The translations under genes were made by a program, and so were the position numbers. A DNA stretch of 64,000 nucleotides. It comes from Oscillospiraceae bacterium. Its GTDB lineage: Bacteria; Bacillota; Clostridia; Oscillospirales; Ruminococcaceae. The stretch is from positions 1 to 64,000 of the forward strand of contig SVMX01000004.1 in assembly GCA_015067175.1 (NCBI GenBank), in the 5' to 3' direction. Positions 24,882 through 34,721 of this stretch are shown here, piece after piece. Under the pieces are notes generated by a model. That model was not told the origin of the DNA. It saw only the letters and a list, made by a program, of their open reading frames with translations, and searched no databases. Every line of letters begins with the position of its first letter. Position 1 is the stretch's first letter.

Positions 24882-25449
24882 TGAAGCGAACCCCAAAGAT
24901 TAGACAGAACAATTAAATAATATGAAAATGAGTTCGGTATTGCACCAGGCTCATTTTTAGTCTAAAAGAAATTCTTTCGTGATTGTAATAATGAATGTAT
25001 TCATTCAGTTCATCAATGAAAGCGTTAACGCTTTCAAATTTCTCACCATAGAACATTTCAACCTTGAGCCTGCCGAAGAAGTTTTCCATAGCACCGTTGT
25101 CCATACAGTTTCCTTTTCTGGACATACTTTGCGTAATGTTGTGTTCAGCCAATAAGCGTTGGTATTCTGCATGTTGGTACTGCCAGCCTTGATCCGAATG
25201 GAACTCATCAGGCAGCTTGTCAAACAAACCGTTCAACATTTCCCTTATCTGATCAAGATTAGGACTTAAAGATATCGAATATGACACAATTTCTCGGTTG
25301 AACAAATCCATAACAGGAGATAAATAAACCTTTGTGTTGCCAACTTTGAATTGTGTTACATCTGTTGTCAACTTCTCGAAAGGCCTTTCAGCTTTGAAAT
25401 CTCTTTTTAATGGTAATGCACTGTTGTCAGTTCGTTTATCACTACTTTG
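24882..25449 (-). mobile_element. truncated IS3-family insertion sequence
   Basis: The remnant has one terminal inverted repeat at 24882-24906 (TGAAGCGAACCCCAAAGATT...), of the IS3/IS150 type. It also has the C-terminal half of the orfB transposase (stop at 24913), with DDE residues in TTDVTQF, FHSDQG and MENFFG. The left end, orfA and the start of orfB are missing. It begins within a few bases of the kinase 2 stop codon. On the other side it abuts the stop codon of the 56-aa ORF. It cannot transpose by itself. Confidence 0.85.
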
Positions 25450-25620: not shown

Positions 25621-26273
25621 GTTCTTATAAGGAGTATACTCTCGCTGATCTCATGCACATCTGCATCATCCTTTTCACTGAGCGAGTTCAGGAAATCCAA
25701 TAATGATTGCTTTTCAGTTACTGGATCACGATGCCATTCTGACGACCATACTCGATACATATTCCATCCCATGTTCTGGAGAACAGATCTTCTGAGATGA
25801 TCTCTGTCACGGGCTGTTCTCGCCTGCATGTAAGAATTGCCATCGCATTCTATACCTGCAATATAATCACCAGCATGCTCAGGATCCTCAACAGCAATGT
25901 CTATCTTATAATCTGAACATCCAACCTGTCGATGTATCTTATAGCCTTCGCTCTCAAGATAGTCTGCAACGATATCGCAGAACTCATCTGTAGAGTCAAA
26001 TACTTCCGAGCTTGCAGCAGACCTTAAAGCTGCTACACCATTTCTTGCATACTCAATATAGGAACGCAGCATACGTACACCTTCAGAATTCGTTCTACTA
26101 AGATCAATATCTGATGGAAGGATCGAGCCCACAAGCTTAACATTACACTTCGCTCTTGTAACTGCTACGTTCAAACGACGCTCTCCGCCAGCATTGCCAA
26201 GCGGACCAAACATACCGTATACAGCGGAAGATGAACGATATCGTCGCGTACCATACCTGTACGGAACAAACAA
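25617..26273 (-). pseudogene. C-terminal fragment of a superfamily I helicase with nuclease-like domain
   Basis: The 218-aa frame begins inside helicase motifs (GERRLNVAVTRAKCNVKLVGS is the motif VI region). A C-terminal PD-(D/E)xK-like nuclease domain follows (YKIDIAVEDPE...GIECDGNSYMQA). This is the tail architecture of large DUF4011-type helicases, which are often found in defence islands. The N-terminal helicase core is missing, and no ribosome site precedes the first Met, so it is a truncated gene. The downstream 56-aa ORF overlaps its stop. Confidence 0.75.
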
Positions 26274-26488
26274 TTGTTTAGTTCTTTTATTTTGCTCTAA
26301 ACGGCTCTACAGAATGATTTACAAGCATTAAACACCCCCGCCGCGATATTTCCGTAGCGGGGTTAGTGTATTTGCAAAAATACAATAGCAAAAATACAAA
26401 ACCGACACTCATATTGCCATTATTTAGCCGATAGCCGTTAAAAGCGCCGTTTCTCCTTGATTATTGGAAGATATGCAAGGACAACATT
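26274..26488. other. intergenic region left of the GH5 gene
   Basis: No gene is seen. An imperfect G/C-rich hairpin at about 26332-26362 (CCCCGC/GCGGGG arms) could terminate GH5 transcription. The breakpoint of the truncated helicase lies at its left edge. Confidence 0.4.
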
Positions 26489-27448
26489 TTAAAGATATTT
26501 CAAAAGCTCATCGCGAACATCATCAAGCCGGCTGTCCGAGATACCGAAATCCATCTGCTTATAGTTCCATGCGCTACGGGCAATACCGTATTTTTCAAAT
26601 ACGCTGTTAATGCATTTATACCATTTCAAAGTATCCTCAGGAGAAACACAGCTGATAACACCATATTCACCGCAGTAGAGAGAGGTGTTATTGAGCTTTG
26701 CGGCTTCCAACGCAGGTTTGAACAGCTCCTCAAAGTATTCGGCGGTGATATTGCTTTCCTCAAAAGTAAAGCGCTCATCTTTATTTATTGCCTCAGTCCA
26801 GTAAGCGCCTTGATGCGTGAATTTCAGCGGGTCATAGCAGTGGAAGTTATACACTACCTTATCATCATAAGGCTTCGCAAGGTCTGCTACTGCTGTAACG
26901 CTGTTGTTCCAGTAGCTTCCGACCAAGATTATACTGTCGGGAGCATACTGTCTTATGCGACGTATACACTCGTTCGATATCCTGTTCCAAGCGTCAATGA
27001 AGCCCTTGTCGGTAACTTCGTTAAGCAGTTCAAAAGCCACCGTGTCACTGAATTTACCGTACCGCTCAGCAAACTGCTCCCACAGACGATAAAAGCGCTC
27101 CTGAAGCTCCTCGCTTTCAAAAAAGCCGCTCTCATTCTCGCCGTAGTTATCAAAAGAGAAGCCTGCGGTCTTGTGGAGATCAAGCACTATGCGCAGCCCA
27201 TGCTTTTTGCACTGCTCAATTACCTTGTCTATACGCTGAAAACCATCTTCTTTATATGTGCCGTCCTCGTTTTCAAACACATTGTAATCAACGGGTATGC
27301 GCACATGGTCAAGTCCCCATGATGCGATCGTTGCAAGATCCTGCTCCGTGACAAAATTGTCCAACCTGTCCTTGCTGTAATCGCACTGGGAAAACCAGCC
27401 GCCAAGATCAACACCTTTATAAAAACCTTTGTTCTTTAACATATTCAT
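26489..27448 (-). CDS. GH5 family glycoside hydrolase (beta-glucanase type)
   Basis: This 319-aa enzyme has the GH5 fold markers Arg50, His203-x-Tyr205, acid/base Glu144 in LLNEV and nucleophile Glu261 in CGEYG. It has no signal peptide, membrane helix or binding module, so it should act in the cytoplasm on imported oligosaccharides. It is divergent from a GH16 lipoprotein gene and shares with it the 27-bp regulatory motif. The exact substrate (cello- or mixed-linkage oligosaccharide) is not decided by sequence alone. Confidence 0.9.
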   Translation of the reverse strand: MNMLKNKGFYKGVDLGGWFSQCDYSKDRLDNFVTEQDLATIASWGLDHVRIPVDYNVFENEDGTYKEDGFQRIDKVIEQCKKHGLRIVLDLHKTAGFSFDNYGENESGFFESEELQERFYRLWEQFAERYGKFSDTVAFELLNEVTDKGFIDAWNRISNECIRRIRQYAPDSIILVGSYWNNSVTAVADLAKPYDDKVVYNFHCYDPLKFTHQGAYWTEAINKDERFTFEESNITAEYFEELFKPALEAAKLNNTSLYCGEYGVISCVSPEDTLKWYKCINSVFEKYGIARSAWNYKQMDFGISDSRLDDVRDELLKYL

Positions 27449-27477
27449 TCAACCTTTCTGTTTTATTTGTTGATGAT

Positions 27478-27530
27478 ATCATAACACATATTGCGAAAAC
27501 CGCATATCAAAATCACGCTCTTTATATCAC
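27478..27530 (-). promoter_or_regulatory. GH5 promoter with 27-bp activator-type site
   Basis: On the minus strand the site at 27504-27530 begins GTGATATAAAGAGC and ends TGATAT. It is followed after exactly 20 bp by the -10 box TATGAT (27478-27483). Two TGATAT half-sites in direct orientation 20 bp apart are typical for AraC-type activators. Confidence 0.8.
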
Positions 27531-27568
27531 AATTTTGCAGTATTGTATTAACATTTTATAGCAATTTC

Positions 27569-27621
27569 GTGATATAAACAGCATAATTCTGATATCACAA
27601 AAGTGATATAAATGATAAAAT
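27569..27621 (+). promoter_or_regulatory. GH16 promoter with 27-bp activator-type site
   Basis: The site at 27569-27595 begins GTGATATAAACAGC and ends TGATAT. It is followed after exactly 20 bp by TAAAAT (27616-27621). An extra half-site GTGATATAAA follows at 27603-27612 between the site and the -10 box. Confidence 0.8.
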
Positions 27622-27658
27622 CATATCAACAAAGCAACACAAAGTGGAGGAGAAAACT

Positions 27659-28492
27659 ATGAAATATTTCAATAAGACCTTATCATTATTAATAGCGGCA
27701 GCTCTTCTTACAGGCTGTGCAAACAATGCGACCACGTCTGTTTCAGAGCAGCAGACTTCAGCTTCCACTGCTGACACAAGCTCTACGGAAGCCACAACAG
27801 CTTCTGTTCCTGAAGAAGCTCCCGTGCAATCCATACCGGAAGGACACGCCTATGCGCAGTTTGCTGACGGTATGCCCGAGGGCTGGGAATGTGCCGACGG
27901 CTGGACTAACGGAAGTATGTTCAATGTAACATGGCGCAAGCGCAACGTTACCTTTGATGATGGCAAGATGCAGCTTATCATTAACAACGATATCACACCG
28001 ACAGTCGGAATACCGTATGCAGGCGGCGAGTTCAGAAGCCGCGAATTCTACGGCTACGGAAGATATGAAGTCAGCATGAAGCCGATAAAAAATGACGGAG
28101 TTGTATCCTCGTTCTTCACCTACACAGGCCCCTCCGATAACAATCCCTGGGACGAGATAGATATTGAATTTCTCGGAAAGGATACCACAATAGTACAGTT
28201 TAATTACTTCACCGACAGCCGCGGAAATCATGAGTATATACATGAGCTTGGATTTGACGCAGCAGAGGATTTTCACACCTACGCATTCGAATGGCACGAG
28301 GACAAGATCGTATGGTATGTTGACGGCGAAGAAGTGTACACCGCCACGGAAAATATCCCTGTCACCGAAAGCAAGATCATGATGAACGCTTGGTGCGGCA
28401 AGGGTGTTGACGGTTGGCTGAACGCCTTTGACGATACAAGTATGCCGCTTACAGCAGAATACGAATGGGTTAGATTTACACCGTTCGAATAA
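27659..28492 (+). CDS. GH16 family beta-glucanase lipoprotein
   Basis: This 277-aa lipoprotein has lipobox LLTGC with Cys20, a Ser/Thr-rich spacer and a GH16 domain from about residue 65. The catalytic motif DEIDIE has Glu166 as nucleophile, Asp168, and Glu170 as acid/base, the arrangement of lichenases. It should cut mixed-linkage or beta-1,3-glucan at the outer membrane face. The ATG at 27659 follows GGAGGAGAAAACT. It is controlled by the 27-bp motif upstream. Confidence 0.93.
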   Translation: MKYFNKTLSLLIAAALLTGCANNATTSVSEQQTSASTADTSSTEATTASVPEEAPVQSIPEGHAYAQFADGMPEGWECADGWTNGSMFNVTWRKRNVTFDDGKMQLIINNDITPTVGIPYAGGEFRSREFYGYGRYEVSMKPIKNDGVVSSFFTYTGPSDNNPWDEIDIEFLGKDTTIVQFNYFTDSRGNHEYIHELGFDAAEDFHTYAFEWHEDKIVWYVDGEEVYTATENIPVTESKIMMNAWCGKGVDGWLNAFDDTSMPLTAEYEWVRFTPFE

Positions 28493-28503
28493 AAAGCAGG
28501 ACA

Positions 28504-28527
28504 GTCTGCGGCTTTTTAGCCGCAGAC
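28504..28527 (+). terminator. hairpin after the GH16 gene
   Basis: The perfect 10-bp arms GTCTGCGGCT/AGCCGCAGAC have a TTTT loop. No T tract follows, so termination may be partial. Confidence 0.55.
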
Positions 28528-28561
28528 TCTATGTGAATTTTGAAGCTTTGCCATATTTAAG

Positions 28562-28590
28562 TTGCTTTTCCTGAGAAAATATAGTAAAAT
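28562..28590 (+). promoter_or_regulatory. promoter of the AraC-type gene
   Basis: TTGCTT (28562-28567) and TAAAAT (28585-28590) are 17 bp apart. The 27-bp motif is absent here, so the regulator itself does not seem to be part of its own regulon. Confidence 0.7.
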
Positions 28591-28608
28591 AAACTTTGAG
28601 GTGATGAT

Positions 28609-29355
28609 ATGGACATACAAAAAAAGCTTTCTCATGTGGAATTTCTGAATAGAGAATACAATGTTTCACATTTATCATACGAGCGGGAGATGGCGTTTTT
28701 TCAGAGCATAAAAGACGGCGATCCCGAGGAAGCCAAGCGCCTTTTCAAGCCTTTCAACAGCGAGGATATGGGCAAGCTCAGTGACGACAGCCTGCGAAAT
28801 CTTAAATATCACCTTACGATCACTGTGGCATTTATAACGCGATATTGCATAGAGGGCGGCATGGAGATGGAAGCGGCATATAATCTCAGTGATATATACA
28901 TACGCAGCATCGACAAATGCCGCACAGAGGACGAGATAAATCTTCTGCACCGCGAAGTGGTGGACGACTACGCGCAGCGTATGCAGCTTATTCGCAAGCA
29001 GAACCGCTACCCGAGATCTGTCACAGTCTGCCTTGATTACATCTACGACAATCTTCACACAAAGATTTCTCTTGAAAAGCTTGCTGAGATAACGGCGTTA
29101 AGTCCTGCATATCTTTCAAAGCTATTCCATAAAGAGGTCGGAATGACCGTTTCGGCTTACATCACCAAAAAACGCATAGAAGCCGCCGAAAACATGCTGA
29201 AGTTCTCTGAATATTCTTGTCTTGAGATATCGGATTATCTCTGTTTCAGCTCCGAAAGCCATTTTATTCAGGTGTTCAGAAAGCACACTGGCTACACTCC
29301 CAAAAGCTTCAGGGAGCGATTTTTCCGAACCCGAAAGCCTGATGTATTTTGTTGA
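28609..29355 (+). CDS. AraC family transcriptional regulator
   Basis: This 248-aa protein has a C-terminal double helix-turn-helix of the AraC family, residues about 145-245 (KISLEKLAEITALSPAYLSKLFHKEVGMTVSAYI and the second helix pair ending GYTPKSFRERF). The N-terminal 140 residues are helical and lack the cupin sugar pocket; the ligand is unknown. It lies between genes whose promoters carry the shared 27-bp direct-repeat motif and is the obvious candidate to bind it. That link is inference. Confidence 0.9.
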   Translation: MDIQKKLSHVEFLNREYNVSHLSYEREMAFFQSIKDGDPEEAKRLFKPFNSEDMGKLSDDSLRNLKYHLTITVAFITRYCIEGGMEMEAAYNLSDIYIRSIDKCRTEDEINLLHREVVDDYAQRMQLIRKQNRYPRSVTVCLDYIYDNLHTKISLEKLAEITALSPAYLSKLFHKEVGMTVSAYITKKRIEAAENMLKFSEYSCLEISDYLCFSSESHFIQVFRKHTGYTPKSFRERFFRTRKPDVFC

Positions 29356-29371
29356 TTTTTATACAGAAACG

Positions 29372-29394
29372 CCCCCGAACTTACTGTTCGGGGG
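29372..29394. terminator. bidirectional terminator between araC-type gene and surface protein E
   Basis: The arms CCCCCGAAC/GTTCGGGGG lie between two convergent genes. No long T tract is present on either side. Confidence 0.65.
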
Positions 29395-29439
29395 TATCTC
29401 TTAGGTTATTTTATTAGGAGTTTCCATGAAGCTTATTGA

Positions 29440-30030
29440 TTACTTTCTTTTTCTACTAATTATCAAAGCACCTGCGGCAACAGTTGCAGCAGCAGCGGCT
29501 GCTGCAACGCCCTCAACGCCTGTATCGGGATTTCCCTTATTGTCTTCTGTGGGAGCAGATGTATCGCCTGCGTCGTCAGCGGGAGCTTCATTAGAAACAG
29601 TCAGTGTTTCCAATTTGATACCATGTCCCATAAACGCAAGACCTGCGATCTCAACGTGCTCAGCATGAGCCTCGGGGATAGTGAATGTGATGGAGGTAGT
29701 ATCTGGATCAATAACGTATGAGTCGCCTGCCTCAGAGGTAGTAAGCTCTGTGATACCATCAACCAAGGGCCAGCCGGCGTCATTGATCATGGGCTTAATG
29801 CACCAGTAGTTATGACCTTCCATATCTGCAAGAGACTGATCCACAGTGTAAGTGATGGTAACATACGCGCCGTCCTGAACGCCGATAAATTCAGTTCCGG
29901 GTACTGTTATGTTCGCGCTCCAGAAAATGTTGAGATCGGTATTCAGATCATAAGCGGAAGCGCCAACTGCGAGAACTGCTGCAGCACATGCGGAAGCTGC
30001 GATGCCTGTTATAAGCTTTCTGAGTTTCAT
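29440..30030 (-). CDS. cell-wall-anchored surface protein E (NPDTG tail)
   Basis: This 196-aa protein has a signal peptide (MKLRKLITGIAASACAAAV), a beta-rich domain of about 120 residues with conserved aromatics, and an acidic linker. The sorting signal is NPDTG, Ala-rich helix, RKRK. Overall design and tail match surface proteins A-C at 9.7-12.7 kb, but the motif keeps proline. It is under the 27-bp motif of the glucan regulon, so a role in holding glucan at the cell surface is plausible but unproven. Confidence 0.8.
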   Translation of the reverse strand: MKLRKLITGIAASACAAAVLAVGASAYDLNTDLNIFWSANITVPGTEFIGVQDGAYVTITYTVDQSLADMEGHNYWCIKPMINDAGWPLVDGITELTTSEAGDSYVIDPDTTSITFTIPEAHAEHVEIAGLAFMGHGIKLETLTVSNEAPADDAGDTSAPTEDNKGNPDTGVEGVAAAAAAATVAAGALIISRKRK

Positions 30031-30087
30031 AATGTAAGATCCTTTCGTTCGTTTTTTCGGATAACGCCGTATCCTTTCTGTGATTAC

Positions 30088-30140
30088 ATGATAGCAGAAA
30101 AAACGTCTTGCTTATATCATAAAAATGATGTTTTTATCAC
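30088..30140 (-). promoter_or_regulatory. surface protein E promoter with 27-bp activator-type site
   Basis: On the minus strand the site at 30114-30140 begins GTGATAAAAACA and ends TGATAT. It is followed after exactly 20 bp by TATCAT (30088-30093). Confidence 0.72.
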
Positions 30141-30183
30141 GATTTTAACCCAAAATGCAGAGATGCTCAATTGGGTTAAAAAT

Positions 30184-30236
30184 GTGATATAAAGAGCATG
30201 ATTATGTTATTTCCAAGGCGCCGTTTGGTGTATCAT
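30184..30236 (+). promoter_or_regulatory. solute-binding protein promoter with 27-bp activator-type site
   Basis: The site at 30184-30210 begins GTGATATAAAGAGC and ends TGTTAT. It is followed after exactly 20 bp by TATCAT (30231-30236). The sequence after the -10 box (GTGATTACAG) also resembles that of surface protein E (GTAATCACAG). Confidence 0.78.
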
Positions 30237-30279
30237 GTGATTACAGCAAACGACAACAACTGAAAGGACGGTTTACGAT

Positions 30280-31698
30280 ATGAAAACATTTAAGAAGATC
30301 ACATCTGCGGTACTCGCAATCGCCAGTGTTCTGACTATTACCGCGTGCGAAGACACCCCTGCTGTAAGCACTGCTCCAAGCGGAACATCAAGCGCACCTG
30401 TTACTACCGCCTCCACAACTAAGGCTACCATGAACGAGGAGGACGCTTCCAAGGTCGCAGAGATCGACATCGGCGCCAAGAAGCTTGAAAACGGTACTGT
30501 AAAGTTTCTTTCCTCATGGGACATAAATCCCACAGAGGGCAATCCTGTTCCCGTGTCGCTTGAGATGTTCCAGACTCAGTTCGGCGGAAATATCGAGCTG
30601 GTCCACACTGCATGGGAAGAACGCTATTCAAAGCTTGCCATTCTTGTTCAGGCTGACGATTCTCCCGATATGTTCAGCGCGGCAGATATGGATATATTCC
30701 CCAAGGGCGCTATCAATGGTATGTTTGATCCGCTCGACGACTATGTTGATTTTGACTCCGAGCTGTGGGCACCCATGAAAGCCGTAAACGATCAGTTTGC
30801 TTTCAAGGGCAAGCATTATGTCGGAGCATACGATACAGATTCGCAGTGCCTGATGTTCTACAACAAAAACACCATTGCCTCCAATGGACTGCCCGACCCC
30901 GTGCAGCTTCTTGAAGAAGGCAACTGGACATGGGACACATTCAACGACATGATGATGCGTTTCTGCGACAGAGAGCAGGGCAAGTTTGCGGTTGACGGCT
31001 GGTGGTTTGAGGGCGCATTCTCGCTCACAACAGGCGTTCCGTATATCGGCATGGCCGATGGCAAGATCGTGCATAATCTCGATGATGCAATGCTCGAAAA
31101 AGCTCAGGATTTCATGTACAACATGAACAAGAACGATCTTCCCTTCCCCAAGGCTGAAAACGCATGGACCATCGTTCCCTCTAACATCGGAGCGGGCAAA
31201 ACACTGTTCTATCCCATAGGCACATACGCGCTGTATCCCTACAACAATATCATTCAGGAATTCGGCAACATGGAGGACGTAATGTTCGTTCCCATGCCCA
31301 AATGTCCTTATACAGAGAAGTATTACCTGCCTTCTATCGTTGACGGCTTCGCTCTTTGCAAGGGCGCAAAGAATCCCGAGGGTGTAGGCGCATATCTCAA
31401 CTGCTGTATGGCAAGCCGCGACAGCGAGATAGCTAAGGAGATCGGCAAGAGACAAGCTTTTGATGAGCACGGCTGGACACAGGAGCAGTACGATATGTAC
31501 CAGAAAGTTCGCGATATGACAGCTGAGGCACCTGTTATCGAGCTGTACAATGCTGTAAACGACGCAGTTGCAGGTTATATCAACAACCCCATGAAGGAAG
31601 GCTACAACAACGGTATTTCCTGGACACAGACACGTGAGCAGATACGCGCTGCCGTTCAGTCGGAGCTTGACGGCGCTAACGAAAAGCTTGGCGAATAA
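30280..31698 (+). CDS. extracellular solute-binding lipoprotein (sugar ABC type)
   Basis: This 472-aa lipoprotein has lipobox TITAC and a Thr/Ser spacer. A family 1 solute-binding fold follows (WEERYSKLAILVQADDSPDMFSA; GKHYVGAYDTDSQCLMFYN; GNWTWDTFNDM). It should deliver oligosaccharides to an ABC importer. No permease or ATPase genes follow it; the next features are a terminator and tRNAs. Partner permeases must lie elsewhere. The regulatory site ties it to the GH5/GH16 genes. Confidence 0.9.
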   Translation: MKTFKKITSAVLAIASVLTITACEDTPAVSTAPSGTSSAPVTTASTTKATMNEEDASKVAEIDIGAKKLENGTVKFLSSWDINPTEGNPVPVSLEMFQTQFGGNIELVHTAWEERYSKLAILVQADDSPDMFSAADMDIFPKGAINGMFDPLDDYVDFDSELWAPMKAVNDQFAFKGKHYVGAYDTDSQCLMFYNKNTIASNGLPDPVQLLEEGNWTWDTFNDMMMRFCDREQGKFAVDGWWFEGAFSLTTGVPYIGMADGKIVHNLDDAMLEKAQDFMYNMNKNDLPFPKAENAWTIVPSNIGAGKTLFYPIGTYALYPYNNIIQEFGNMEDVMFVPMPKCPYTEKYYLPSIVDGFALCKGAKNPEGVGAYLNCCMASRDSEIAKEIGKRQAFDEHGWTQEQYDMYQKVRDMTAEAPVIELYNAVNDAVAGYINNPMKEGYNNGISWTQTREQIRAAVQSELDGANEKLGE

Positions 31699-31720
31699 TC
31701 ATTTTCTCCCTATATTATCT

Positions 31721-31745
31721 GACCCCGCCATAGTATGGCGGGGTC
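31721..31745 (+). terminator. terminator of the solute-binding protein gene
   Basis: The 12-bp arms GACCCCGCCATA/TATGGCGGGGTC are separated by one base and followed by AAATAATT. The inverted repeat is strong, but the T tract is poor. Confidence 0.75.
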
Positions 31746-31768
31746 AAATAATTGCAATTATGCAAAAC

Positions 31769-31792
31769 GACCCCGCACACAAGTGCGAGGTC
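31769..31792 (-). terminator. terminator after tRNA-Pro
   Basis: On the minus strand GACCTCGCAC/GTGCGGGGTC arms are followed by GTTTTGC, 11 nt past tRNA-Pro. Confidence 0.7.
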
Positions 31793-31803
31793 GCAAGTTA
31801 TCG

Positions 31804-31880
31804 TGGTCGAGATGACAGGATTTGAACCTGCGACCTCTGCGTCCCGAACGCAGCGCTCTACCAAACTGAGCCACATCTCG
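31804..31880 (-). tRNA. tRNA-Pro (CGG)
   Basis: A 77-nt cloverleaf with acceptor CGAGATG, anticodon stem CTGCG/CGCAG, loop TTCGGGA (anticodon CGG) and encoded CCA. It lies downstream of tRNA-Gln on the same strand without a separate promoter. Confidence 0.96.
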
Positions 31881-31913
31881 AAATATACGGCGGCTATGTC
31901 GCCGTATCAAAAA

Positions 31914-31936
31914 ACCGCCGAGAACTATCGGCGGCT
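31914..31936 (-). terminator. terminator-like hairpin between tRNA-Gln and tRNA-Pro
   Basis: On the minus strand GCCGCCGATAG/CTCGGCGG arms are followed by TTTTTTG, 4 nt after tRNA-Gln. A second hairpin (TACGGCG/CGCCGTA, 31887-31908) follows before tRNA-Pro. Confidence 0.65.
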
Positions 31937-31940
31937 TGAT

Positions 31941-32016
31941 TGGTTGGGGTGGAAGGATTTGAACCCTCGAAATGGTGGAGTCAGAATCCACTGCCTTACC
32001 GCTTGGCTACACCCCA
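31941..32016 (-). tRNA. tRNA-Gln (CTG)
   Basis: A 76-nt cloverleaf with the weak first pair U1-A72 typical for glutamine tRNA, anticodon stem GTGGA/TCCAC, loop TTCTGAC (anticodon CTG) and encoded CCA. Confidence 0.96.
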
Positions 32017-32033
32017 GTGACTTAACGAAATAT

Positions 32034-32062
32034 ATTATATCACAGGTGTATCGTTTTGTCAA
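32034..32062 (-). promoter_or_regulatory. promoter of tRNA-Gln/tRNA-Pro
   Basis: TTGACA (32057-32062) and TATAAT (32034-32039) on the minus strand are 17 bp apart. Confidence 0.9.
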
Positions 32063-32118
32063 TAGTTTTTGAAAATTTTTTTGATTTTTTTGTGACAGAT
32101 TTCGCCTTAAAGACTATT

Positions 32119-32145
32119 GGCGGCTGCTAAACAAAAACAGCCGCC
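32119..32145 (-). terminator. hairpin after copA
   Basis: GGCGGCTG/CAGCCGCC arms with an 11-nt loop lie 14 nt past the copA stop. The T tract is weak. Confidence 0.6.
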
Positions 32146-32159
32146 GATGCATAAATACA

Positions 32160-34721
32160 CTATTCGATTGAAACTACCTCATAGCCTGCTTCGGTAATCG
32201 CATTTTTAAGCACCTCGTCCGAAACATCGGCAGTCAGCGTAAGCACTGCTTTTTTCTCCGCAAGAAAAGCCTTTGCACTTACTCCGTCAATGGCGTTCAG
32301 CGCTTTTTCAACGTGCGCTGTGCAGTGACCGCACATCATTCCATTTATGAAGATGATTCTCGATGTCTCGGCACTTTTTACAGTAGCTTCACAAACAGCG
32401 TCAACCGCATCGATCATCGACACATTACAATCTGCTGCAATATGCTCTGTCTGCTGAACATTTTCAACGCCCTTGACCTTGAAAAATCGCAATCTCAGTG
32501 CGTTTGTTACAACGCAGACCGAGCTAAGGCTCATTGCCGCTGCCGCTATCATAGGATTGAGCCTGATACCGAACGGCAGAAACAGCGCACCCGCCGCAAG
32601 AGGAATACCAACCGCATTGTAAAAGAATGCCCAGAACAAATTCTGCTTTATGTTCCTTATAGTAGCGCGACCCAGTGAAAGCGCTGCGGCAGCGTCACAA
32701 AGGTCGCTTTTCATCAGTACTATATCGGCGCTGTCAATAGCGATATCCGTGCCCGCACCGATTGCAATTCCCACATCTGCACACGCGAGGGCGGGCGCAT
32801 CATTTATGCCGTCACCTATCATTGCTACGCGCTTGCCCTGCTGCATAAGCTCTGTGATATATTCCGCCTTGCCCGTAGGAAGCACCTCGGCGACTGCCTC
32901 GTCAACTCCCGCCTGCTTGCCGATAACTTCAGCAGTGCGCTTATTGTCGCCTGTCAGCATGACCACACGTGCGCCCAGCTGCTTCAAGCGCTTTACAGCC
33001 TCATGACTGGAGGATTTTATCACGTCAGCCGCGGCAATCACTCCAACCACAACAGTCGAGTTGGCAATATACATTACAGTTTTGCCCTCACCCGAAAGCT
33101 TCTCAAAATCCTTTTCTGCGGCAGTACAGTCAATGCCCTTTTCAAGCATAAGATGCTTGTTTCCTATATACCATCGCTCGCCGTTAAGCTTTGCGGTAAC
33201 TCCCCTGCCAAACAGCGCCTCAAACTCCTCTGCGTTTTGTGCAGTAAGCCCCATCTTCTCGCCCTGCGCCACTATCGCGGCAGAAACAGGGTGCTCCGAC
33301 AGCTTTTCAATTGAATAAGCCGCCGCAAAAGCGCCGCTTTCATATTCTATAATATCGGTGCAACGAGGGTTGCCCTCCGTGATAGTGCCTGTCTTATCAA
33401 GCACAACTGTGTCTATCTTATGCAAAGCCTCCAATGCAGACGCAGATTTGATCAGAATACCGTTTTCCGCACCCTTGCCAGTTCCTGCCATGATAGCCAC
33501 GGGAGTTGCAAGTCCCAGCGCACACGGACAGGAAATGACAAGCACCGAAATTCCCATTGACAGCGCCAACGTAAAGCTTTCGCCAAGCAGCAGCCACACT
33601 GCAAATGTTATAACCGCAATACTCATTACGATAGGCACGAAAATTCCGCTTATCTTATCCGCAATGCGCGCAATCGGTGCTTTTGACGCGGACGCGTCGC
33701 TCACAAGCTCGATTATATGCGAAAGAGTGGTATCGCCGCCAACCTTTTCGGCGCGGAATTTGATAAATCCACTGCCGTTTACAGACGCGGCAAGCACCGT
33801 ATCTCCAACAGTTTTTTCATTGGGAACGCTCTCGCCTGTTAGCGCTGATTCGTCGATAGCGGCATTACCCTCGATGATAACGCCGTCTGCCGGAATACGC
33901 TGTCCGGGGCGCACTATGCAGATATCGCCCTCGACAAGCTCCTCAGTGCGAAGAGTAAGCTCCTCGCCGCCGCGCTCCACTACAGCGGTTTCTGGGGCAA
34001 GGTCTATAAGCTTGTTCAGTGCCTCAGCAGTTTTAGCTTTTGAGCGGCTTTCAAGGTATTTGCCTACTGTTATGAGCGTCAGTATAGTGCCCGCACCCTC
34101 AAAGTAAAGGTCGTGACGGAACTGCTCCACAAGCTCCGTATCGCCGTTTCCCATACCCCAACACATCATATATACCGCAAAAATTCCGTATATCACCGAC
34201 GCCGCAGAGCCTACCGCGATAAGCGTGTCCATATTCGGTGAGCGGTGTATCAGCGCCTTAAAGCCTTTGGAATAATACGCGCGGTTAAGGTACATTATCG
34301 GGAGCGTCAGCAAAAACTGCGTAAATCCGAATGCCACAGCGCCCTTAACTCCGCACATAAAATCGGGCAGCGGCGCGCCAAGCATATGACCCATCGAAAC
34401 ATACATCAGCACCGCAAGAAAGCCTATCGAAAGGAATAGCCTGCGCTTCATTGAAGCCGCTTCTCTGTTTCTTTCTTCAACTGCGCTTTGCTGCGGCTGA
34501 GCCTTTTCGGCAGTATCACCCTTTACAGTGCAGCCGTAGCCCGCGCCGATCACCGCGTTTATAATATCCTGCTCGGTGAGGTCGGAATATTCAACTGTCA
34601 TGCTTGCCGTCATAAGACTTACGCTTACATCAGTCACTCCGTCAAGTTTTTTTACCGCCTTTTCTACATGGGCAGAGCAGGCGGAGCAGCTCATACCCGT
34701 AACATTGAATTTGCTTTTCAT
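32160..34721 (-). CDS. copA: copper-translocating P-type ATPase with N- and C-terminal metal-binding domains
   Basis: This 853-aa P1B-type ATPase exports Cu(I). It shows an N-terminal HMA domain (GMSCSAC), TGES, the intramembrane metal site SCPC, the phosphorylated Asp in DKTGT and GDGINDAP. Unusually, a second HMA domain with GMMCGHC forms the last 70 residues, like a CopZ chaperone fused to the C-terminus; most CopA proteins carry such domains only at the N-terminus. The ATG follows AAAGGCGTTCT. A palindrome lies between promoter and start. Confidence 0.94.
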   Translation of the reverse strand: MKSKFNVTGMSCSACSAHVEKAVKKLDGVTDVSVSLMTASMTVEYSDLTEQDIINAVIGAGYGCTVKGDTAEKAQPQQSAVEERNREAASMKRRLFLSIGFLAVLMYVSMGHMLGAPLPDFMCGVKGAVAFGFTQFLLTLPIMYLNRAYYSKGFKALIHRSPNMDTLIAVGSAASVIYGIFAVYMMCWGMGNGDTELVEQFRHDLYFEGAGTILTLITVGKYLESRSKAKTAEALNKLIDLAPETAVVERGGEELTLRTEELVEGDICIVRPGQRIPADGVIIEGNAAIDESALTGESVPNEKTVGDTVLAASVNGSGFIKFRAEKVGGDTTLSHIIELVSDASASKAPIARIADKISGIFVPIVMSIAVITFAVWLLLGESFTLALSMGISVLVISCPCALGLATPVAIMAGTGKGAENGILIKSASALEALHKIDTVVLDKTGTITEGNPRCTDIIEYESGAFAAAYSIEKLSEHPVSAAIVAQGEKMGLTAQNAEEFEALFGRGVTAKLNGERWYIGNKHLMLEKGIDCTAAEKDFEKLSGEGKTVMYIANSTVVVGVIAAADVIKSSSHEAVKRLKQLGARVVMLTGDNKRTAEVIGKQAGVDEAVAEVLPTGKAEYITELMQQGKRVAMIGDGINDAPALACADVGIAIGAGTDIAIDSADIVLMKSDLCDAAAALSLGRATIRNIKQNLFWAFFYNAVGIPLAAGALFLPFGIRLNPMIAAAAMSLSSVCVVTNALRLRFFKVKGVENVQQTEHIAADCNVSMIDAVDAVCEATVKSAETSRIIFINGMMCGHCTAHVEKALNAIDGVSAKAFLAEKKAVLTLTADVSDEVLKNAITEAGYEVVSIE

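Follow-up and report, generated by a model that had tools for sequence, protein, structure and literature searches.

A conserved tandem operator and its candidate AraC-type activator in a predicted beta-glucan regulon of an Oscillospiraceae bacterium

Gene cluster and gene products

The DNA analysed here, referred to as the window, is a stretch of 64,000 nucleotides (contig SVMX01000004.1, positions 1–64,000, forward strand) from Oscillospiraceae bacterium GCA_015067175.1. It carries a cluster of genes for a GH5 endoglucanase, a GH16 lichenase, an AraC/XylS-family regulator, a surface protein (protein E) and a solute-binding lipoprotein (SBP). The GH5, GH16, E and SBP genes are each preceded by a common operator of about 36 bp, placed at a fixed distance from a -10-like hexamer. 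This element and its candidate regulator are the subject of the present analysis, which followed up an earlier reading made from the letters of the window (the sequence-only reading).

The GH5 enzyme (26489–27448, minus strand; Pfam PF00150) is CelC-like, its closest solved relative being CelC (1cec, E 1.9e-66), and is probably cytoplasmic, because no signal peptide is evident by eye. The GH16 enzyme (27659–28492, plus strand; PF00722) has an N-terminus that resembles, by eye, that of a lipoprotein. It scores 334 bits against the NCBIfam model for beta-glucanase BglS (NF047856, cut-off 300), which places it among the lichenases, and matches the 1,3-1,4-beta-glucanase 3i4i with an E-value of 1.2e-78. 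Surface protein E (29440–30030, minus strand) contains a signal-peptide-like start, a beta-sandwich domain and an NPDTG sortase signal (NF033846 NPXTG, 25.8 bits, cut-off 23.5). A profile search with protein E against PDB sequences gave no match; its structural model matches SGBP-B of the B. ovatus MLGUL, in the fold of the C-domain, and on this model the protein is a probable mixed-linkage-glucan-binding module. The SBP (30280–31698, plus strand; PF13416 and PF01547) is encoded without adjacent permease genes, and none of the 12 permease-domain matches in the own genome lies on the contig of the window. The beta-glucan assignment made in the sequence-only reading is therefore backed, for three of the four products, by evidence from protein families and folds, as GH16, GH5 and protein E match proteins that act on or bind beta-glucans.

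The regulator (28609–29355, plus strand; PF12833 and PF00165) has a C-terminal domain with two helix-turn-helix motifs, as is characteristic of the AraC/XylS family, and this DNA-binding domain also gives structure matches. In the structural model (mean pLDDT 87.8, pTM 0.51), the N-terminal part (approximately residues 1–130) is all-helical and contains no strands; no PDB fold stood out for this part, a result of little weight because the part was modelled within the whole protein. Pfam reports helix-turn-helix families only. The nearest NCBIfam model, the YSIRK-targeted surface antigen regulator TIGR04094 (residues 3–235), was rejected, its score of 120.9 bits being below the curated cut-off of 200. 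Between the GH16 and araC genes lies a long hairpin, AGTCTGCGGCT-tttt-AGCCGCAGACT (approximately 28503–28528, plus strand), without a clear T-run. Past the hairpin, a possible araC promoter (TTGCTT-17 bp-TAAAAT) was read by eye; the promoter scan did not list it.

Operators and promoters of the window

A 27-bp site had been proposed at each of the four promoters (27504–27530, minus strand; 27569–27595, plus strand; 30114–30140, minus strand; 30184–30210, plus strand), and all coordinates and strands are correct. The four sites are identical at 19 of 27 positions, and exactly 20 bp separate the end of the site from the -10-like hexamer at all four promoters, as claimed. The true unit is about 36 bp long and extends about 9 bp further upstream. 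Thus defined, the GH5 operator spans 27504–27539 on the minus strand (upstream half TGCaaaattgTGATAT, downstream half AGCgtgatttTGATAT) and is followed by TATGAT at 27478–27483. The GH16 operator spans 27560–27595 on the plus strand and is followed by TAAAAT at 27616–27621. The operator of protein E (30114–30149, minus strand) precedes TATCAT at 30088–30093, and that of the SBP (30175–30210, plus strand) precedes TATCAT at 30231–30236. The operators form two divergent pairs; the 36-bp sites stand 20 bp apart in the GH5/GH16 pair and 25 bp apart in the E/SBP pair.

The clearest tandem repeat among the four is that of GH16, where AGCaatttcgTGATAT (27560–27575) and AGCataattcTGATAT (27580–27595) are separated by the 4-bp spacer aaac. 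A simple scan found no -35 match in three of the four promoters; the GH16 promoter has a -35 match of 9/12 with a spacer of 16 bp. RNA-level control was also considered: Rfam over 26000–32500 gave two tRNAs only, and the element sits upstream of the -10 box. The two tRNA genes (31807–31880 and 31944–32016, minus strand) lie immediately past the SBP gene. Also near the cluster is an open reading frame (ORF) at 24913–25371 on the minus strand, which resembles an IS3-type transposase fragment.

Half-site anatomy

A profile was built from 24 promoter sites of the window and its relatives, picked by eye among places located by the matrix of the window; one oppositely oriented site (genome G070) was excluded. 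In this alignment conservation begins about 9 bp upstream of the 27-bp site, and the unit consists of two tandem copies of a 16-bp half-site (consensus AGCAAAATTnTGATAT), which occupy positions -8 to 7 and 12 to 27. Each half-site reads AGC-N7-TGATAT, the two are offset by 20 bp, and the second ends 20 bp before the -10 box, whose consensus is TATnAT (positions 48–53). The self-similarity of the profile peaks at 0.586 at a shift of 20, and the other shifts from 8 to 28 reach at most 0.41. The weakest part of the profile is the upstream A-box. An A at position 60, present in 23 of the 24 sites, is a likely transcription start.

These are direct A-box/B-box repeats about two turns apart, the arrangement expected for AraC/XylS-type operators. 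The sequence-only reading had described two short halves around a core, with AGC-T in three of four copies. The three copies are there and direct halves do lie two turns apart; the halves themselves are two complete A-box/B-box units, and there is no central core.

The E. coli K-12 araBAD promoter (pBAD) was fetched for comparison and its half-sites were read by eye with the AGC-N7-N6 rule. It contains AGCATTTTTATCCATA (AGC-N7-TCCATA) and, after a gap of 4 bp, TAGCGGATCCTACCTGA, with TACTGT a further 20 bp on; these half-sites correspond to araI1 and araI2. The likeness to E. coli AraC at pBAD lies in the two direct half-sites, the AGC-N7 arrangement of A-box and B-box, the 4-bp gap, the second site adjoining the -35 region and the 20 bp from the end of the site to the -10 box. 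The B-boxes differ, being TGATAT at window-type operators and TCCATA and ACCTGA at pBAD, and so does the set of genes under the operators. Arabinose AraC also has a cupin-type AraC_binding sensor domain, whereas Pfam reports none in the regulator of the window, whose modelled N-terminal part is helical.

Scans of the own genome

The own genome assembly comprises 2,144,111 bases and is about 84% complete; therefore, additional sites could be missing. The 27-bp pattern with up to three mismatches matched eight places (the four sites with none, one place with two and three with three) and the reversed pattern matched two; the four sites are the sole places with one mismatch or fewer. A longer pattern that includes the -10 box, again with up to three mismatches, matched five places (the four sites with zero to two mismatches and C13:150855–150913 with three), and the control none; all of these counts are partly circular, because the patterns derive from the sites themselves. 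A profile made from 20 sites of other genomes ranked the four operators first to fourth in the 64 kb (41.0, 40.0, 36.6 and 35.9 bits, with the fifth place at 12.5), although it is not fully independent, as those sites were first located with the matrix of the window. A motif scattered at random over the genome had been named as an outcome that would speak against the regulon, and the scans came out in its favour.

Two candidates for further members were rejected. C9:2025–2051 (22.1 bits), upstream of a rimP-like gene, has no TATNAT at 20 bp, and C13:150855–150913 (L134) lies inside a long ORF. Around eight of the 12 permease-domain places in the own genome the best score was 9.9 bits; thus, none of these eight joins the regulon by this criterion.

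Conservation of the element

Relatives retain the araC gene and its neighbours, in several different arrangements. Target orthologues were defined by at least 40% identity to GH5, GH16, E or SBP, and their promoters were scored with a matrix made from the four sites of the window alone. The scoring excluded the identical locus L057 and eight otherwise-fetched loci (L084–L088 and L134–L136); loci L125–L133, fetched because of pattern matches, were included in the first count and omitted in a repeat. At 12 bits or more, the element was found at 22 of 53 target promoters, 2 of 166 other genes, 1 of 28 araC genes and 8 of 1060 shuffles, and at 8 bits or more at 29, 6, 5 and 50 of these, respectively. 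Without the pattern-chosen loci, the counts at 12 bits were 17 of 46 target promoters, 2 of 127 other genes and 1 of 27 araC genes. TATNAT (with at most one mismatch) lies at exactly 20 bp in 21 of the 22 sites of relatives and at 19 or 21 bp in none; in the repeat the figure was 16 of 17. A proximal half-site at the -35 region and a fixed distance to the -10 box are the hallmarks of class II activation, and an AraC-type regulator acting beside the -35 region, as had been proposed, is supported by this comparative evidence.

Genome G008, that of a very close relative, carries two versions of the cluster. Five proteins of L057 (G008:C273) are 100% identical to those of the window over the parts present; the second version, split over two contigs (L058, G008:C209, and L125, G008:C55), is approximately 76–90% identical and has its own sites. 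At L060 (G029:C283), the AraC protein is 83–84% identical, the target cluster does not adjoin within 10 kb, and only a short SBP-like ORF is similar. A site also precedes a MatE-family gene in G019, outside the set of named loci described next.

A second set of loci was chosen by the AraC protein: 80 named loci were found, of which 75 were left after the duplicates L148, L186, L195, L196 and L206 had been dropped. An ORF counted as a target gene if it matched a protein of the window with at least 35% identity and 80 bits, and as another gene if it had more than 150 residues and no such match. With the full profile at 16 bits or more there were 82 matches in 54 loci, compared with three in reversed sequence, and at 28 bits or more 50 and none, respectively. 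The site is carried by 53 of 88 target-family genes (GH5 16/32, GH16 16/24, SBP 14/24, E 7/8) as opposed to 8 of 454 other ORFs. No site of the full profile is directed at any of the 74 araC homologues, so that the lack of a site at the araC gene of the window, as the sequence-only reading had it, holds generally. Among the eight other ORFs are a GH3 enzyme (L159) and proteins that look secreted and have no Pfam match above the cut-off (L162, L167, L172, L177 and L207). A site stands before GH5 at the loci of two cultured relatives, Clostridium sp. E02 (L199, 28.5 bits) and Thermoclostridium caenicola DSM 19027 (L197, 18.4 bits). In a matrix-free count over the 88 target promoters, the top two hexamers were GATATA (51/88; shuffled mean 9.7) and TGATAT (50/88; 11.1); words of the ribosome-binding site ranked lower (AAGGAG 20/88, shuffled mean 4.7; AGGAGG 15/88, 2.8). 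The comparative evidence from related loci thus supports a regulon shared by the four promoters.

Association of regulator and operator across genomes

Only the full profile or the full geometry discriminates sites from chance. Across 150 genomes, the full-geometry pattern gave 57 matches in 31 genomes (the own genome included), against seven control matches. With a close AraC defined as E of at most 1e-50, a limit chosen after the matches had been viewed, and with genomes counted by hand, the pattern was present in 20 of the 26 relatives that have a close AraC and in 10 of the 123 that lack one (149 relatives; p 1.4e-12). When only close-AraC genomes that had not been used for derivation are counted, the figures are 9 of 15 and 10 of 123 (p 8e-6). 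A site lies within 4.5 kb in 77 of 101 AraC loci, a count that includes the training loci and has no control at that threshold. The three sites examined in G077, of four, stand in front of two GH16 genes and a gene pair that includes an SBP-like member, and their three contigs are not the one that carries its close AraC gene; therefore, the element can act in trans.

Among the 77 loci with a site, six AraC proteins have the second recognition helix FP[SNT]QSYF. Their operators read ACGATA upstream in five of six cases and CGATAT downstream in three of six, and CGATAT is also found in 3 of the 71 others. This covariation of helix and B-box would fit direct recognition by the regulator and is suggestive only, because a single 12-row clade accounts for five of the six proteins, all of them from named loci. 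The comparative evidence as a whole supports the neighbouring araC gene as the probable source of the regulator, as had been predicted.

The 27-row clade that contains the protein of the window (100/99 support, midpoint root) also takes in three Treponema proteins, among them one from Treponema sp. JC4; two further ones are placed elsewhere in the tree, with a Herbinix row. The sites of L159 and L162 score 22–33 bits with poorer -10 boxes, and those of L163 and L191 score 19–20 bits. The Treponema rows suggest that regulator and operators may have been transferred together, the alternative being contamination of metagenome bins. Beside the AraC homologue of L163, from a Treponema metagenome-assembled genome, a 1017-residue protein (L163:3325–6378) contains Reg_prop repeats, Y_Y_Y and a guanylate/adenylate cyclase domain.

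Proposed mechanism and alternative explanations

The sites, their geometry, their conservation and their association with the gene families and the regulator gene are features of the compared sequences. On these grounds we consider it very probable that, when beta-glucan is used, the 28609–29355 protein acts as a class II activator of all four promoters; its binding to the operators, the activation and an induction by beta-glucan oligosaccharides are what we infer. A regulator dimer, or two monomers, would bind the two direct 16-bp half-sites AGC-N7-TGATAT, 4 bp apart. Because the second half-site adjoins the missing -35 element, ending at its upstream edge 20 bp before the -10 box, the bound regulator could hold sigma-A RNA polymerase at a promoter without a good -35, in the class II geometry of araI1–I2. 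Taken together, the products would serve the utilisation of mixed-linkage beta-glucan: the GH16 lichenase as a lipoprotein, protein E as a glucan binder anchored in the wall, the SBP as a lipoprotein, and the CelC-like GH5 probably in the cytoplasm. The regulator gene, which has no site, would not itself be under this control.

Several results weigh against such a regulon. The upstream A-boxes of the four operators (TGC, AGC, GTT and GTT) are weak, and the half-site offset is 20 bp, compared with 21 bp at pBAD. Among relatives, 24 of the 53 target promoters score below 8 bits; several of these lie inside operons or retain TGATAT-20 bp-TATAAT although their upstream half has diverged, and some show nothing. 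A strong site in G070 (L076:8528–8554), between AraC and GH16, faces away from GH16. Of the 75 named loci, 21 have no full-profile match. With the 27-bp matrix of the window alone, at 12 bits or more, the named set gave 32 of 73 target promoters, 4 of 339 other genes and 6 of 73 araC genes, and the class II layout is less clear there, as only 18 of the 32 targets (and none of the six araC genes) have TATNAT at 20 bp. The named-locus counts are not independent events, because the loci are related, and the near-copies L143 and L144 were retained among them. The literal pattern of the window, with up to two mismatches, gave 13 matches against 12 in the control outside the own genome and G008 in the 150 genomes; being uninformative, it was replaced by the full-geometry pattern. 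Finally, the fold match of protein E depends on a model of mean pLDDT 70.8, a search with the SBP against PDB sequences gave no match, and the own genome contains nine AraC-like matches in total, so that another member of the family could bind the operators.

The last point leads to the possibility that these are indeed AraC-type operators, bound by another AraC-family or YesN-like response regulator that is encoded elsewhere. The nine matches would allow it, and the sites of G077, on contigs apart from its close AraC gene, show that linkage is not universal. This AraC and the sites co-occur, however (20/26 versus 10/123 genomes), and 77 of 101 AraC loci have a site no more than 4.5 kb away, while the FP[SNT]QSYF variants pair with ACGATA (5/6) and CGATAT (3/6 versus 3/71). 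We therefore regard a different binder as unlikely.

It is also improbable that the regulator binds as proposed and represses, or acts as a dual regulator by looping between the divergent operator pairs. Sites paired at 20 and 25 bp would suit such an arrangement, and E. coli AraC itself forms DNA loops, according to the part of the source consulted (PMC3711423), whereas the sites stand upstream of and beside the -35 region and do not cover the -10 box or the start. Three of four promoters lack a -35 match, as expected of activator-dependent promoters, and AraC-family tandem-repeat sites upstream of promoter elements in Caldicellulosiruptor are interpreted as activator sites in the relevant part of PMC8579813. 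A resemblance without any dedicated regulator, left by recent duplication of one AT-rich promoter region or reflecting generic promoter structure, would account for the AT-richness of the promoter regions and for the one sigma-A-like layout common to all four. That explanation is hardly credible: the spacers are unrelated, while operator and -10 box are conserved at a fixed distance in many genomes, and other genes of the same loci are mostly without the element (8/454).

Relation to known systems

AraC-family activators with tandem sites near promoters are already well known, from E. coli and, by prediction, from Caldicellulosiruptor (PMC8579813). The comparisons in this section refer to excerpts of the papers cited. 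In Caldicellulosiruptor bescii, AraC-family activators (PecR, HemR and others) were predicted by comparative genomics; they resemble the present case in that they regulate polysaccharide genes in Bacillota and have tandem-repeat sites ahead of promoter elements, and differ in serving pectin, xyloside and other pathways. The excerpts name no AraC-type mixed-linkage-glucan regulon, and the glucan degradation locus of C. bescii is said there to lack a dedicated regulator (PMC8579813). In Blautia producta, the enzymes and transporter of a mixed-linkage glucan locus rise on barley glucan (PMC10318527). That locus likewise combines a GH16 glucanase, an AraC-type regulator and an SBP; in contrast to the window it has GH94 and ABC permease genes, and the excerpts contain no study of the binding site of its regulator. 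In the celC-glyR3-licA system of Clostridium thermocellum, a single local regulator that responds to a beta-glucan disaccharide, laminaribiose, controls both CelC and another hemicellulase, LicA, but this regulator, GlyR3, is a LacI-family repressor (PMC5483248), in contrast to the AraC-type candidate of the window. No description of this motif or regulon was found in the open-licence literature, and the excerpts of two reviews or surveys (PMC10766802 and PMC5320581) offer no competing description.

Biological implications

The regulon of the window is a new, well-supported case of this type of AraC activator. To our knowledge, the switching of polysaccharide genes in fibre-degrading Ruminococcus-like gut bacteria has been little studied. 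As a more speculative and, at present, rather doubtful extension, the all-helical, non-cupin AraC subfamily may be a portable switch for mixed-linkage glucan, its gene and operators having spread jointly through gut Oscillospiraceae and Lachnospiraceae and reached Treponema, while the DNA-recognition helix changed in parallel with the B-box (TGATAT to CGATAT); the lone SBP may then feed the signal and not a dedicated transporter. With a concrete conserved operator, a promoter geometry that is fixed, few genes and a named candidate for the regulator, the proposal can be tested with a single purified protein and a single reporter. An AraC subfamily with a sensor part to which no ligand is assigned also comes into view, as does a family of wall-anchored, probably beta-glucan-binding proteins represented by protein E.

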